A stretch of 35,624 bases of DNA from contig JACNGQ010000126.1 in assembly GCA_014384025.1 (NCBI GenBank), forward strand, positions 1 through 35,624. Direction: 5' to 3'. Shown in pieces: positions 21,409 through 28,389 of the stretch. A program made the position numbers and the translations under genes. The stretch comes from Planctomycetota bacterium. Lineage in GTDB: Bacteria; Planctomycetota; Phycisphaerae; Sedimentisphaerales; Anaerobacaceae. Below the pieces are notes generated by a model. It was not told the origin of the DNA and did not search any database. It saw nothing but the letters and a program-made list of their open reading frames with translations. Position 1 is the first letter of the stretch, and each line of letters starts with the position of its first letter.

Positions 21409-22836
21409 ATGTTTGAATCATTAACTGAAAAATTTAACTCCGTTTTCCGGTCGCTGGCCGGACGGGGACGGATTACCGAAGCCAACGTCTCGGATGCTAT
21501 GCGGGATGTACGCAAAGCCCTCCTCGAAGCGGACGTCAGCTACAACGTCGTAAAGCAGTTCTGCAAAGACGTTACAAAGGCAGCCATGGGTGCCGAGGTA
21601 ATAAAAAGTCTTCATCCGGGCCAGGTCATGGTAAAAATCGTAAGCGAAGAGCTGACAAAATTGATGGGGCCTGTCGATACCCGCATCTATTTCGTCTCGC
21701 CCGGGCCTACAGTAATTATGTTGGCCGGCCTGCAGGGTTGCGGCAAGACAACCACCGCGGCAAAACTCGCAAAATACCTCGTCGCAAAGGGTAAAAAACC
21801 ACTCTTAGTGGCCAACGACCTCCAGAGGCCGGCCGCTATCGAACAGTTGATTATCCTCGGTCAACAGATAGACATTGACGTTTACAGCGAAGACAGCAAA
21901 AACGCCGTGAAAGTCGCCAAAAACTCCCTAAAACATGCCAAAGAAAACGGTCACAACGTCGTAATAATTGACACCGCAGGCCGACTGCACATCGATCAGG
22001 AAATGATGACCGAAGTTGCAAACGTCGCAAAGGCCGTCAGTCCACACCAGATATATCTTGTCTGCGACGCTATGACAGGTCAGGACGCCGTCAATTCAGC
22101 CAAAGAATTTAACAAACGCCTCGAGCTTGACGGAGTTATTCTCACGAAACTCGACGGTGATGCACGCGGCGGAGCGGCACTGAGCGTAAAAGCCGTTACC
22201 GGAAAACCCATCAAGTTCATCGGCATAGGCGAAAAGCTCGAAAAGCTCGAAGAATTTCATCCCGACCGCATGGCAAGCAGAATTCTCGGTATGGGCGATG
22301 TAGTAACACTCGTCGAAAAAGCCCAGGAACATTTCGAGGTCGAAGAGGCCCAGAAGCTGCAAGTGAAAATGGCAAAAGGCAGCTTCGGTTTCGATGATTT
22401 CTTAAAGCAGATGCAGGCCGTCAAAAAGATGGGTGGCATTAAGGATATGATGAAAATGATGCCCGGAATGGGCGGGCAGCTCAAAGACGTTGACCTTGAC
22501 GGCGTCGAACTCAAACAAACCGAAGCGATTGTCTATTCGATGACACCCGCCGAACGCCGCGACCCGGATATTATAGACTCCTCAAGACGAAGACGTGTCG
22601 CCGCAGGCGCCGGCGTGTCGGTTAACGATGTATCCAGCCTCGTAAAAACATTCAAACGCAGCCGTGATATGATGAAAGCAATCAGCGGCGGAAGCTTCGG
22701 CGGCCTCAAGAGCCTGCTGTCCGGCGGCTTAAATATGGGAGCTCTGAACCAAATGATGAGCGGAGGAAAAAAAATAAAGCAGCGCTCAAAAAGAAAAAAG
22801 ATCATAAGGCGAAGAGGAAAAATTAAGAAACGATAA
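21409..22836 (+). CDS. ffh: Signal recognition particle GTPase Ffh (SRP54)
   Basis: 475 residues, normal for the family. Ffh binds the 4.5S/6S SRP RNA and signal sequences of nascent membrane proteins and delivers ribosomes to FtsY. The N domain (1-85) starts MFESLTEKFNSVFRSLAGRG and contains ALLEADV. The G domain has G1 GLQGCGKTTT near 106-115, DTAGRLHID near 188, and G4 TKLDGDARGG near 246. The Met-rich M domain (about 325-430) contains MMKMMPGMGG and the RNA-binding SMTPAERRDP and SRRRRVAAG stretches. The tail is unusually basic (KKIKQRSKRKKIIRRRGKIK). No ribosome binding site is visible before the ATG, but the N terminus matches the family exactly. A sulfatase gene, not rpsP, follows about 95 bases downstream. 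Confidence 0.98.
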   Translation: MFESLTEKFNSVFRSLAGRGRITEANVSDAMRDVRKALLEADVSYNVVKQFCKDVTKAAMGAEVIKSLHPGQVMVKIVSEELTKLMGPVDTRIYFVSPGPTVIMLAGLQGCGKTTTAAKLAKYLVAKGKKPLLVANDLQRPAAIEQLIILGQQIDIDVYSEDSKNAVKVAKNSLKHAKENGHNVVIIDTAGRLHIDQEMMTEVANVAKAVSPHQIYLVCDAMTGQDAVNSAKEFNKRLELDGVILTKLDGDARGGAALSVKAVTGKPIKFIGIGEKLEKLEEFHPDRMASRILGMGDVVTLVEKAQEHFEVEEAQKLQVKMAKGSFGFDDFLKQMQAVKKMGGIKDMMKMMPGMGGQLKDVDLDGVELKQTEAIVYSMTPAERRDPDIIDSSRRRRVAAGAGVSVNDVSSLVKTFKRSRDMMKAISGGSFGGLKSLLSGGLNMGALNQMMSGGKKIKQRSKRKKIIRRRGKIKKR

Positions 22837-22932
22837 AGTGTAGTTGTCATTCCGGTATAAGGTTGTCACCCCTGCAAAAACAAGGGATATATTCCTTTGA
22901 TTTCTTGAAATTTGCTTATGGGAAAAACCATT

Positions 22933-24381
22933 ATGAATAAAAGCTTAAACCGTCGTAACTTTCTAAAGATTGCCGGCGCAACGGCCCTCGGTGCTGTACT
23001 GGCCGGCTGCACGGATGAACTCATCCAAAGTGCAGGCGGCCCGGCTGACAAGCCTAACTTCATTATCATTTTCTGCGACGATTTGGGCTATGGCGACCTC
23101 GGCTGTTTCGGCTCAAAGAAACACCGAACACCAAACATCGACCGGATGGCTGATGAAGGAATGCGCTTTACGAGCTTCTATGTAACCAGCGGCGTATGCA
23201 CACCGTCCCGGTCGAGCCTGATGACAGGCTGCTATCCCCGCCGAGTAAACATGCATCAGGACAGCGACAACCTGTGTGTCCTGTTCCCCGTAGGCAAAAA
23301 GGGACTCAATCCGAATGAAATCACCATAGCTGAAGTGCTAAAGTCACGGGGCTACGCCACAGTTTGTATTGGCAAGTGGCATTTAGGTGACCAGCCCGAA
23401 TTCCTGCCCACAAGCCAGGGCTTCGATTACTATTACGGTATCCCCTACAGCAATGATATGGGCGCAAGAAAAAACTCCAACCGCCCCCCCCTGCCGTTAC
23501 TGCAAAACAAAAAAGTCATCGAGGCACCCGTCAACCAGAACACGCTTACAAAGCGATACACAGAGCAGGTAATAAATTTTATCACAGCTAATAAGGACAA
23601 ACCATTCTTCGTTTACCTGCCACACACGATGCCGCACAATCCCGTCCATTCCAGCGATAACTTCCGCGGCAAGTCCGCAAACAACGGCTACGGCGACTGC
23701 GTGGAAGAAATTGACTTCTCCACAGGACAGATTCTCCAAACGCTAAAGAACCTGAACATAGATGACCGCACTCTCGTTGTCTTCACATCCGACAACGGCG
23801 CAGCTCAGCAATGGGGCGGAAGCAACCTTCCGCTTTCCGGATTCAAAGGCAGTACAATGGAAGGCGGTATGCGTGAGCCGGCCATTATGCGATGGCCGGG
23901 CAAAATCCCCGCAGGAAAAACCTGCAACGAATTAGCTTCTACACTGGATCTGATGCCGACATTAGCGCTGCTGGCAGGTACAAAGGCCCCAACCGACCGC
24001 ATAATCGACGGTAAAAACATCTGGCCGCTTATGACAGGTAAAAGAGGTGCAAAATCGCCGCATAAGACATTCTATTATTACCAGATGGATCAATTGCAGG
24101 CCGTACGCTCCGGAAAATGGAAATTGCATTTGCCCCTCAAGATGAAAAAACGAAACTGGGGAAAAGGAATACCAGATACACCCCTTAATTTGTATAATCT
24201 TCAAGCCGATATCGCCGAGACAAACAATGTCGCAGACCAGCATCCTGATGTGGTTAAGCGTCTTTTCGCTATGGCTGAAAAGGCACGCCGGGACCTTGGC
24301 GACGTCGATCGCGAAGGCACAGGCCAGCGACCTGCCGGCCTGGTTGTAACACCGAAGCCTTTGTTGTTCTCATCGAAATAG
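22933..24381 (+). CDS. Tat-exported lipoprotein sulfatase (S1 family, Cys type)
   Basis: 482 residues from the ATG at 22933; in-frame starts upstream (22912 TTG, 22918 ATG) add a few residues. The N terminus NRRNFLK is a twin-arginine motif, followed by GATALGAVLAGC, a lipobox with Cys26. The sulfatase domain shows metal-binding Asp residues in FCDDLGYGDLG, the formylglycine motif CTPSR at 89-93, GKWHLG, HTMPHNP and TSDNGA, and a Lys in GFKGSTMEGG. Cys89 would need conversion to formylglycine by a maturation enzyme not encoded here. It would remove sulfate esters from polysaccharides or glycans at the cell envelope; the substrate cannot be read. It lies between ffh and an SRP-M-like gene, an unusual place for a catabolic enzyme. 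Confidence 0.93.
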   Translation: MNKSLNRRNFLKIAGATALGAVLAGCTDELIQSAGGPADKPNFIIIFCDDLGYGDLGCFGSKKHRTPNIDRMADEGMRFTSFYVTSGVCTPSRSSLMTGCYPRRVNMHQDSDNLCVLFPVGKKGLNPNEITIAEVLKSRGYATVCIGKWHLGDQPEFLPTSQGFDYYYGIPYSNDMGARKNSNRPPLPLLQNKKVIEAPVNQNTLTKRYTEQVINFITANKDKPFFVYLPHTMPHNPVHSSDNFRGKSANNGYGDCVEEIDFSTGQILQTLKNLNIDDRTLVVFTSDNGAAQQWGGSNLPLSGFKGSTMEGGMREPAIMRWPGKIPAGKTCNELASTLDLMPTLALLAGTKAPTDRIIDGKNIWPLMTGKRGAKSPHKTFYYYQMDQLQAVRSGKWKLHLPLKMKKRNWGKGIPDTPLNLYNLQADIAETNNVADQHPDVVKRLFAMAEKARRDLGDVDREGTGQRPAGLVVTPKPLLFSSK

Positions 24382-24409
24382 AACATGAGTAAGAGTAACA
24401 GGAAAATAA

Positions 24410-24742
24410 ATGACGATAAAAAATAATATGTCAATTGAGCAATACCTTGTCAAAGTTGCCCGCTTTTCCGATAACGAATTCGGCAAACTGATTCGAAATC
24501 AATTCAAGGATATGGAAGGCAGCAGTGAGCTGGGTATGTTGGCCGCACCCACCCCTGAGGAATTGGCACAATTGAAAAAAGCCGTGGCGATAATGACCCC
24601 GGCTGAAAAACAAAACGCCGACAGCCTGACTGACGAACAAACGCAGAGAATCGCCGACGATGCCAAAATTGACCCGGCAAACTTCGCGATCTTCATCAAC
24701 GGTTACGCCTTATATCGCAAAAGTATTTTGCCGCACAAATAA
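24410..24742 (+). CDS. Small protein resembling a stand-alone SRP54 M domain
   Basis: 110 residues; AGGA lies six bases before the ATG at 24410. Residues 1-45 are polar and helical (IEQYLVKVARFSDNEFGKLI). Residues about 50-106 parallel the M domain of the Ffh encoded nearby: KKAVAIMTPAEKQNADSL aligns with AIVYSMTPAERRDPDII, and QRIADDAKIDPANFAIFING with RRVAAGAGVSVNDVSSLVKT. The Arg-rich SRP-RNA-binding SRRRR motif of Ffh is replaced by TDEQTQR, so it probably does not bind SRP RNA the same way. The gene is cytoplasmic, lies 28 bases after a sulfatase and about 190 bases before rpsP, in a cluster that begins with ffh. A duplicated and degraded M domain with a new role is the inference; a chance helical resemblance remains possible. 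Confidence 0.6.
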   Translation: MTIKNNMSIEQYLVKVARFSDNEFGKLIRNQFKDMEGSSELGMLAAPTPEELAQLKKAVAIMTPAEKQNADSLTDEQTQRIADDAKIDPANFAIFINGYALYRKSILPHK

Positions 24743-24928: not shown

Positions 24929-25612
24929 ATGGCAGTAAAGTTAAGAATGACCAGGATTGGCAGGCGGCACAGGCCCTTTTTTAGAATCAATGCGGTCGAA
25001 TCCCGCACGCCGCGAGATGGCAGAATTCTCGAAAAGCTCGGTCATTACGACCCTATTGAAAAGGACCAGGCCAAGCAGATTGTCCTCAATAAGGAGCGTG
25101 CAGAGTATTGGCTCAGTAAAGGAGCAGTACCATCCGATACGGTCTCTCAAATTCTGCTTCGGCAGGGTATAAAACATAAATACGCCGAAGATAAAGCTGC
25201 ACGACAGGCAAAAGCCCGGTCAATAGCCATCGCCAAAGGCAAGCTGTTCAATAAGGCTCAAAAAATAGCCGTCCAGAAAGAAGCTGAAGCAAAAGCAAAC
25301 GCTGAAACTGAGGCAAAAGCCAAAGCTGAAGCTGAAGTAAAGGCAAAAGCTGAAGCTGAGGTAAAAGCCAAAGCGGATGCCGAGGCAAAGGCTAAGGCAG
25401 AAGCAGAAGCTAAAGAAGCCGAAGAAAAGGCCAAAGCTGAAGCTAAAGCAAAAGCCGAAGAAGAGAAAGCCAAGGCAGAGGCCGAATCTAAGGCAAAAGC
25501 CGCCGAAGAAGCCCAGGCACAACCTGAGCCCGAGGCAAAGCCAGAGGCTGAGTCTGTGGAGGAAAAGGCAGAGACCGAAACCAAGGCCGATGAAGAAAAA
25601 ACCGAAGAGTAA
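24929..25612 (+). CDS. rpsP: Ribosomal protein S16 with long Ala/Lys/Glu-rich tail
   Basis: 227 residues, preceded by AAAGGA. Residues 1-82 are a normal S16 ([20 protein letters not shown], then [14 protein letters not shown] and the [11 protein letters not shown] end), a small-subunit protein needed for 30S assembly. Residues about 85-227 are an extension almost wholly of Ala, Lys and Glu (repeats of the type AEAKAKAE, then EEKAKAEA), expected to be one long charged helix, ending in an acidic segment with Pro (QPEPEAKPE) and DEEKTEE. S16 is usually 75-90 residues; C-terminal extensions occur in some lineages, but this one is longer than the core. The DNA here is correspondingly repetitive. 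The next gene in most bacteria, rimM, is missing and trmD follows. Confidence 0.97.
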
Positions 25613-25680
25613 AAACTTCGTTCATCAAATACTATGATATACAGCCCCACATTTTGCGTGGGGCTTTTGACAAAGAGCCG

Positions 25681-28389
25681 ATGCGCGTCGATGTTCTTAC
25701 ACTTTTTCCGGAAATGTTTGAATCGCCCCTGGGCTGCTCGATATTAAACAGGGCACAGGAGGCGTCCCTGGTCGAAATAGTCCTTACCGACATTCGGGAC
25801 TTCGCCGCTAACAGTTACAGAAAGGTTGATGATAAACCTTATGGCGGCGGCCCGGGTATGGTCATGATGCCGGGCCCGGTTTTCGACTGCTTCGAACACG
25901 TCCAAAAATTATCACCCGACAAAGGCCGCGTTATCCTGCTTACCCCGCAGGGCCAAAGATTCGACCATAAACAAGCTGTTGAACTAAGTAAAGAAAAACG
26001 GATAATATTAATAGCCGGAAAATACGAAGGCTTCGATGAGCGGATTCGTCCCGGCCTCGACGCCGAGCAAATATCCATAGGAGATTATGTCTTAAACGGC
26101 GGCGAATTAGCTGCTATGGTAATCATCGATGCGGTTGTAAGATTATTACCCGGCGTTCTCGGCGATGAGGACTCATCGAAGGATGATTCCTTCAGCGAAG
26201 GCCTTTTGGAATACCCGCAATACACAAGACCGGAGGTCTTTCGCGATATGAAGGTTCCTGATGTTCTGTTAAGCGGCGACCACGCAAAAATAGCCGAATG
26301 GCGCCGCCGGCAGGCACTCGAACGAACTAAACAATGGCGTCCCGATTTGCTCCAAACAAAACCGGACCAAGAGGATGGAAAAAAAATGAAAATAAAAGCA
26401 GAATCCGCAAATGTAAAATCGAACTCACAAAGTAAACCCGCGCCGGTCAGCTTTAAATCACTCGGTCCCGTCCCTGACCTCGAAGAGCATGTCCAGCCAG
26501 ACTGGTGGCGCAGAATTTTCAACTCTACCTACCTGAAAACAGATGGAGATGTTATCGATGATGCACAAATAACCGCCAAAGAGGTTGACCTGTTCTCAGA
26601 CATCCTGAAATTCTCGCAGCAGGAAAAAATCCTAGACCTTTGTTGCGGACAGGGACGCATCACCCTTGAACTGGCAAGACGGGGATTCACCAACGTCGAA
26701 GGGCTGGACCGCTCCCGATACCTGATTCAAAAGGCAAAAGCCCAGAGCAAGAAAGAAAAACTGTCTGTAAAGTTCAGAGAAGGAGACGCAAGAAAACTGC
26801 CTTATCAGCCGGACACTTTTGATGTGGTTATGATTCCCGGAAACAGTTTCGGCTATTTCGAAACTCCGCAGGATGATGTCAGGGTACTCAAAGAGGTCTT
26901 CAGGGTATTAAAGCCCTGGGGCAAAATTCTTATTGATGTCGCCGACGGCGAATTTATGAAAAGACGTTTCAAACCAAGGTCATGGGAATGGATAGATAAA
27001 AATTACTTCGTATGCAGAGAGCGTTCACTGTCCAAGGACAAACATCGCTTAATCTCAAGAGAGGTTGTCACTCACGTTAAAAAAGGCGTAGTCGCGGACC
27101 AGTTTTATGCCGAACGCCTTTACACACGCAAGAACCTGGACGAGCTTTTTGCCGCGGCGGGTTTCAAAGATATTGCAGTACACAGCGAAATTTCAGTAGA
27201 CTCCAAACGCAACCAGGATCTCGGCATGATGGAAAGACGCATCACCTTAACAGCAACAGCCAGAAAGGAATGGACGCCCCATAAAAAAACAAAGGAGCTG
27301 ACCCATAATCTCGTTGTGATTTTAGGCGACCCCGCAAAACCAGATCCTTTAAAACCACTTTGCGTTTTTGACGATGATGATTTCTACACAATCGACCAGA
27401 TGAAAAACGCCTTAAGAGACCTTAACAAATACAGCATCAACTACCTCAACAATCACGACAGCTTATACAACGACCTGGTCAAATTAAAACCAAAAACAGA
27501 CCTGTTCCTGAATCTCTGCGACGAAGGCTTTTATAACGATGCCCGTAAAGAGCTGCATATACCCTCTATGCTGGAAATCCTTGACTGTCCGTACACGGGC
27601 GGCGGCCCTCAGTGCCTGGCTTTCTGTTACGACAAGTCGCTCGTTCGCGGCATCGCCATGGAAATGCAGGTTCCCGTGCCGGAAGCCTTCTTTATTAAAC
27701 CCCAGGACGATACTTTTGAGCTTCAGTTCTCTTTCCCCGTGATTGTAAAACCCAACTTCGGAGATTCCAGTTTCGGGATAACCCAGAGAAGCGTCGCAAA
27801 CTCAATTGAAGAGCTTGTAAATGCCATCTCGGAAATAAGAGAACAATTCGGTTACGAAAAACCGATACTTGTGGAAGAATTTCTCACCGGCAAGGACCTG
27901 ACAGTCGGCATCATTGGAAACACCCCCGAATCTTATATCGTTCTGCCCATTATCGAAGAAGATTACTCCGCCCTGCCGGAGGGTCTTCCTAAATTATGCG
28001 GCTATGAAGCCAAGTGGATGCCCGATTCGCCTTACTGGAACCTCAAATCAATTCCTGCTAATCTGCCAGAAGATACGGAAAAAATTCTTGTCGAAAGCTG
28101 CTTGAAGCTGTTCGAAAGACTCGACTGCCGCGACTATTGCAGGCTCGACTGGAGACTGGACTCTAACGGAACTCCAAAACTTCTTGAGGTAAATCCCAAC
28201 CCCGGATGGTGCTGGGACGGCCATCTGGCAAAGATGGCAAATCTGATTGGACTGTCCTATTCGGAAATGCTGGGAGCTATCATGTCCGCCGCCGAAAACC
28301 GCCTGAACATTCAGAACCCGGCCGATAAAGATGCCGCGGCCAGACAACCGCTGCAGCAGACGCAACCCAACACACAACAAAATAAATGA
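25681..28389 (+). CDS. trmD: Fusion: TrmD tRNA (m1G37) methyltransferase - class I methyltransferase - ATP-grasp ligase
   Basis: 902 residues from the ATG at 25681 ([18 protein letters not shown], the usual TrmD start; the frame is open to a TTG at 25654). Residues 1-230 are TrmD, a knotted SPOUT enzyme that methylates G37 of tRNAs: [40 protein letters not shown] and a [10 protein letters not shown] end. Residues about 260-530 are a Rossmann-type SAM methyltransferase with motif [11 protein letters not shown] near 316 and later [17 protein letters not shown]. Residues about 543-870 form a D-Ala-D-Ala-ligase-like ATP-grasp: [55 protein letters not shown] and LEVNPNPG near 836. The last two domains may make a peptide-like bond and a methylation on an unknown substrate. 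TrmD is normally about 230-260 residues. Met236 lies at the junction, in an A8 run (26379-26386). Confidence 0.93.
26379..26386 (+). repeat. A8 run at the trmD/methyltransferase junction
   Basis: Eight A precede TGA here, read in frame as GGA AAA AAA ATG AAA. With seven A the TrmD frame would read AAA AAA TGA and stop, while the ATG at its end would start the methyltransferase frame with a four-base ATGA overlap. GAGG at 26371-26374 lies 11 bases before that ATG. The run therefore decides whether this is one gene or two. Confidence 0.85.

Follow-up and report, generated by a model that had tools for sequence, protein, structure and literature searches.

Few cellular machines are as conserved as the signal recognition particle (SRP). 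In plants, the M domain of cpSRP54 works without SRP RNA, with cpSRP43 as partner and with the GTPase domain kept. YlxM, the SRP accessory protein of Gram-positive bacteria, is also encoded beside ffh; it is a helix-turn-helix protein unrelated to the M domain and binds the SRP RNA. An M domain without the NG GTPase domain is found in mL105, a protein of the Tetrahymena (ciliate) and Polytomella (green-algal) mitoribosomes that is seated where Ffh sits (PMC7326499, PMC9576764); it lies at the tunnel exit touching bL23m (PMC7326499), and it is stabilised by extensions of bL24m and uL29m, facing the insertase (PMC9576764). Here, a small gene located between ffh and rpsP is described in a stretch of 35,624 nucleotides from a Planctomycetota bacterium (contig JACNGQ010000126.1; this whole stretch is called the window). 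Its product of 110 aa is a free-standing homolog of the Ffh M domain without the GTPase domain, without the Arg-rich/GSG RNA site and without most of the methionines. A search of the literature for such a protein found no paper.

Homology to the Ffh M domain and remodeling of the small protein

The small protein matches the Pfam model of the M domain (SRP_SPB, PF02978) with 19.5 bits (E 0.0013), short of the 27 bits that Pfam's curated cut-off requires; among 30 relatives, 23 hit this model at E up to 0.1 (best E 0.0006). When the whole 6.7-Mb genome was searched in six frames with SRP_SPB at E up to 1, only two matches were obtained: Ffh (111.8 bits) and the small open reading frame (ORF; 19.3 bits). 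BLASTP against the Ffh of the window aligned residues 51–103 to Ffh residues 367–419 with 26% identity over 53 aa (E 6e-5, the value for a single comparison), and this alignment contains MTPAE as an exact match as well as the R(I/V)A core. Profile–profile comparison by HHalign of the family with the Ffh M domain gave a probability of 90.9% and a score of 43.6 over 49 columns, compared to 11.5 for the Ffh NG domain, 13.3 for the reversed M alignment and a maximum of 16.3 among 30 column-shuffled M alignments. Additionally, beyond the order, five genomes of the same class were weakly matched by the family profile (E 2e-4 to 7e-3), always on Ffh-encoding loci; three of them (L063, L064 and L067) were placed inside the Ffh M domain by coordinates, the other two being checked for Ffh on the locus only. 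In G065 the profile also weakly matched something other than Ffh, and a second match of the small protein in its own genome (G000:C420, E 0.075) looks like chance. The NCBIfam scan gave nothing above cut-off, the Pfam scan of the 110 aa gave no NG GTPase domain, and neither the protein nor the family profile retrieved an SRP protein from the PDB sequences, all hits being attributable to chance.

The predicted structure points in the same direction. The AlphaFold2 model (predicted local distance difference test, pLDDT, 82.8; predicted template modelling score, pTM, 0.76) comprises seven helices at residues 9–17, 23–33, 39–45, 49–61, 64–68, 75–85 and 89–105. Its best Foldseek matches are SRP54 M domains with probabilities up to 1.00, but with E-values of 0.05 or more. 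Structural alignment of the model gave Z 9.4 with 2ffh_A (root-mean-square deviation, rmsd, 3.3 over 87) and Z 8.7 with 1hq1_A (rmsd 3.1 over 76 of 76 residues), whereas unrelated homeodomains reached Z 4.1 at most; the solved M domains are thus clearly above unrelated folds. Mitoribosome chains (8apn_Ub, 6z1p_AT, 7pkt_S and 9i05_AI, Z 6.3–7.2) are also among the fold matches; the mitoribosome chains that matched the model include those of Toxoplasma and Chlamydomonas. The original prediction, made from the letters alone, had proposed a stand-alone SRP M-domain-like protein whose C-terminal half resembles the M domain. Its reading is supported for homology and fold, and BLASTP confirms the C-terminal likeness with its MTPAE and R(I/V)A core; the likeness is not limited to that half, however, since residues ~6–110 span the entire M domain in the superpositions. 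Likewise, the profile match that it called for is real but stays under the curated Pfam threshold.

A chance resemblance without any M-domain kinship could appeal to that single-protein Pfam score and to the PDB sequence searches. It is largely refuted and hardly credible, given a profile–profile score far from every control, M domains as the top structural matches and out-of-order family-profile matches that fall on Ffh loci. Each measure alone is moderate; combined, they make homology to the Ffh M domain nearly certain.

The domain has been remodeled. The absence of the Arg-rich RNA-binding motif, already noticed in the window's protein, holds family-wide: the site was found in 0 of 126 small proteins, while (S/P)RR(R/K)R(I/V)(A/S)xGxG is kept in 113 of 115 Ffh proteins of the same loci. 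SSRRRR of Ffh reads DEQTQR in the small protein of the window, and in the family the site is replaced by conserved L, D, E/Q and D. The net charge changes from +4 in Ffh to -2 in the stretch of the RNA site and from +3 to -3 in the whole domain, and methionine falls from 10.0% in Ffh M cores to 2.9%. In place of the finger-loop region the family has GxSELAMLAAP, a motif that hardly varies, and the last helix retains a hydrophobic AIFINGYAL stretch. Near-invariant in the family are R29, F32, G37, SELAML (~39–44), P47, E51, AVAIMT (58–63), L73-x-D75-E-Q77, D84, D88 and IFxNGY (94–99, including N97). Because many of these invariant features are not common to Ffh, the small protein appears to be reshaped for its own task, and the invariant residues of its own (R29, F32, G37, P47, E51, L73 and N97) imply a partner of its own.

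These changes also bear on the possibility of an independent holdase, in which the small M domain would itself bind hydrophobic segments or transmembrane helices outside the SRP, in the manner of a mini-chaperone. Binding of hydrophobic segments was one of two functions that the original prediction had put forward, modulation of the SRP being the other, and both are still hypotheses. The fold that builds the hydrophobic groove is preserved and so is the hydrophobic last helix, as such a protein would need. On the other hand, the methionines associated with groove plasticity are down from 10% to 3%, the nearly invariant motif in place of the finger loop suggests one specific partner instead of many segments, and the operon linkage points to the SRP. 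Such a holdase is therefore considered unlikely; following the loss of methionines, general signal-peptide binding is less likely than a dedicated partner.

The locus in the window and its distribution

The small ORF is a genuine gene, conserved as part of the ffh-rpsP-trmD cluster, and its predicted coordinates on the plus strand, beside ffh and rpsP, were confirmed (Table 1). In the window the gene order is ffh, a sulfatase gene of the Tat type, the small gene, rpsP and trmD, with the small gene 1.57 kb 3' of ffh and 186 bp 5' of rpsP. The genome carries a single complete Ffh and also an SRP RNA of the ordinary small type (65.3 bits), so that its Ffh is not RNA-free and its SRP looks standard.

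Table 1. Features of the small gene and its neighbors in the window.
Feature	Position	Strand	Basis
ffh, complete Ffh of 475 aa; RNA site SRRRRVAAGAG intact, C-terminal tail basic	21409..22836	+	
Ffh M domain (SRP_SPB), presumed source of the paralog	22384..22674	+	SRP_SPB profile search
Sulfatase gene with twin-arginine translocation (Tat) signal, between ffh and the small gene	22912..24381	+	
Shine-Dalgarno-like AGGA, putative, a few nt 5' of the small-gene ATG, aacAGGAaaataaATG	24396..24403, +/- 3 nt	+	Read from sequence; function inferred
M-domain-like gene, 110 aa, ATG start	24410..24742	+	ORF list, Pfam, HHalign, AlphaFold2 model, superposition
Stretch LTDEQTQRIADDAKI, residues 73–87, counterpart of the Ffh RNA-binding helix (SSRRRRVAAGAGV in the Ffh of the same genome)	24626..24670	+	
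rpsP (bS16) with long A/K/E-rich C-terminal extension; conserved downstream neighbor	24929..25612	+	
trmD fused in frame with S-adenosylmethionine (SAM) methyltransferase and D-Ala-D-Ala-ligase-like ATP-grasp domain; TrmD part is the next conserved neighbor	25654..28389	+	

Two neighbors show peculiarities of their own. The Ala/Lys/Glu-rich extension of bS16 comprises roughly 110–140 residues, and the trmD fusion is a single frame of 911 aa that L015 encodes at nearly full length, most relatives having only the TrmD part at this position.

The small gene is present in 139 of 161 genomes of the order (apparently Sedimentisphaerales) and in 63 of its 66 good-quality genomes. The three good genomes without it also lack an ffh match, so the locus is probably unassembled there, and in two lower-quality ffh-positive genomes the contig runs out, either where ffh ends or inside the sulfatase gene. 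None of the order's examined genomes proved to be a genuine case of a missing gene. Outside the order, samples of the class and the phylum (298 and 392 genomes, overlapping) gave no family member and weak matches of the Ffh type only. Conservation of the gene beside rpsP in Planctomycetes, a check that the original prediction proposed, is thus borne out beside ffh and rpsP in one order, but not in the phylum at large; the family is new and restricted to that order, M-domain proteins as such being already known. The family and Ffh align over only about 50–70 columns, at 25% identity.

Among 135 distinct loci, ffh lies upstream on the same strand in all 119 whose flank reaches it, the remaining 16 having no ffh within the available flank. 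Of these 119, 65 have a small frame that directly adjoins the 3' end of ffh or overlaps with it. A sulfatase gene stands between the two genes in about ten loci including the window, and it is missing from the tight ffh-small arrangement of most relatives. This neighborhood is relevant to the idea that the fold was kept for a task unrelated to targeting, the linkage to ffh being only a trace of the gene's birth there. The strong sequence divergence, the invariant residues of its own, the reversed charge and the sulfatase gene that can separate the two genes would all fit such a history; the small gene nevertheless stays with ffh across the sampled families of the order, and the idea is judged unlikely.

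Free-standing M domains are not confined to this family. When 149 genomes of the phylum were searched with SRP_SPB, proteins consisting of an M domain only were found in two other families, f44 (three genomes, G409, G314 and G424; L180, L181 and L183) and f48 (seven genomes, G318, G342, G362, G379, G396, G411 and G426; L182 and L184–L189). The f44 gene lies upstream of ffh in G424, and the f48 genes are 10–22 kb from ffh where both are on the same contig. The f48 proteins end in a conserved APKNRLPKDWKP-like tail. Like the small protein, the f44 and f48 proteins carry an SRP_SPB domain without NG in a separate ORF. Unlike it, they occupy open frames of about 200–320 aa (one of 684), score above the Pfam cut-off, keep some of the RNA-site arginines (e.g., LRKREVAFKSG) and are mostly further from ffh. 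Their origins are probably separate from that of the small-protein family, and Planctomycetota thus seem to have evolved free-standing M domains on more than one occasion.

Proposed initiation of the small frame at its overlap with ffh

In 31 of the overlapping loci (among them L011, L017, L020, L022, L026, L040, L045, L089, L122, L138, L141 and L146) no ATG, GTG or TTG occurs from 12 codons before to 4 codons after model position 1. Three of these start-less loci have a TTG or GTG at +6 and in one a TTG lies within ffh, 70 codons upstream; all others are free of ATG, GTG and TTG as far back as the preceding in-frame stop. The small frame is -1 relative to ffh in 31 of 31, and the ffh stop is TAA or TAG in 30 of them; a TGA stop would give an NTG codon, as ATGA or GTGA in several relatives. 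An ACG spanning the third- and second-last sense codons of ffh is present in 26 of the 31, and ATA stands there in two more. Considering only loci in which ffh has K/R then R at this site, ACG is found in 23 of 26 start-less loci compared to 9 of 25 separated ones (Fisher p 1.4e-4, without correction for phylogeny). In the window, L003, L004, L005 and L008 an ATG is located exactly at the ACG position.

The median dN/dS (ratio of nonsynonymous to synonymous substitution rates) is 0.14 for the body of the small protein in start-less loci, indicating purifying selection, and for codons 6–25 it is 0.27 compared to 0.26 in separated genes. Owing to this equal constraint, translation most likely includes codons 6–25, a segment that precedes most of the internal Met codons. 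At the junction with ffh, the small frame shows no constraint (dN/dS 1.07). A perfect AAGGAGG was seen in two loci only (L141 and L146), and the strength of the Shine-Dalgarno sequence cannot separate the hypotheses, because the C-terminal ffh codons (R/K-G-K) give AGAGG- or AAAGG-like words anyway. The best reading of these patterns is that the start-less loci use near-cognate initiation at ACG, aided by ribosomes finishing Ffh. Model position -2 is favored as the start since several separated relatives have ATG there and ACG is enriched there, over an NTA codon overlapping the ffh stop or a near-cognate codon at model position +4.

A -1 frameshift near the ffh stop, which would extend Ffh by the small domain and so give it a second M domain, blind to RNA, would account for the single frame shared by all start-less loci, and A_AAA occurs near the end of ffh in many of them. 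Against this, the open overlap of L112, L120, L132 and L138 has no homopolymer slip site, six loci offer just two open codons of the -1 frame ahead of the ACG site, separated genes, that of the window included, begin with an ATG of their own (several exactly at the ACG position), and 0 of 119 loci show an in-frame fusion to ffh. Frameshifting is consequently regarded as very unlikely. If initiation at ACG is true, it would represent a naturally conserved non-AUG start forced by the ffh overlap, and gene finders restricted to ATG, GTG and TTG would truncate or miss the small gene in about a quarter of genomes.

Proposed function and comparison with known systems

The reading that we favor, at about even odds (roughly 0.5), is that of an RNA- and GTPase-free accessory protein of the SRP or the ribosome, made together with Ffh and derived from ffh, whose 3' end would have undergone a partial tandem duplication in the ancestor of the order. 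Translation of the small protein would take place on the ffh message, in most cases by ribosomes coming straight from the completion of Ffh, so that its dose follows that of Ffh; where the frames overlap, the Arg-rich Ffh C-terminus would rule out ATG as the start, and a near-cognate codon (ACG in nearly all cases) would take its place. Since the RNA site and the GTPase are lost, methionines are fewer, the fold is kept and expression is linked, the protein may act as a protein-binding module independent of RNA and GTP. It might dock at the ribosomal tunnel exit (the uL23/uL29 region, seat of the Ffh M domain and of mL105) or on Ffh/FtsY, and could thereby tune the engagement of the SRP with ribosomes. 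The tunnel-exit or SRP-bound role is proposed on the precedent of mL105 and of the mitoribosome chains among the matches of the model.

Several points weigh against this proposal. Sequence similarity between mL105 and the small-protein family was not significant at the sensitivity used (profile search against PDB chain sequences), the link being one of fold only, and a Z of about 9 is moderate for a small helical protein model. Being acidic and Met-poor, the protein may no longer take part in the SRP pathway at all, even though its gene has remained in the operon, and the sulfatase gene in the window's clade indicates that tight coupling is not obligatory. A bolder form, in which an M-domain subunit free of RNA and GTPase would be obligate throughout the order and seated on the ribosome exit or on the SRP (a bacterial counterpart of mL105), with regular ACG initiation inside the ffh coding sequence in many genomes, is advanced tentatively and is less likely than not. 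The separate copy of the signal-binding domain, conserved across the order and without its RNA site, shows that free-living bacteria, too, can put the M domain to use as a protein module, a re-use already proposed for mitochondria.

Compared with the M domain of bacterial Ffh/SRP54, the small protein is alike in its predicted fold, in MTPAE and the R(I/V)A core, and in the position of its gene beside ffh. It differs by having no NG GTPase, no SRxRR...GxG RNA site and no basic tail, and by being Met-poor and acidic with a different finger-loop region. The plant cpSRP54 keeps its GTPase domain, which the small protein lacks. Pfam and NCBIfam scans of the small protein gave no YlxM family, and unlike YlxM, which binds the SRP RNA, the small-protein family has lost the RNA site. 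As for mL105, it is eukaryotic and a fixed ribosomal subunit, whereas ribosome binding of the small protein is a proposal; both are M domains without NG, encoded as separate proteins.
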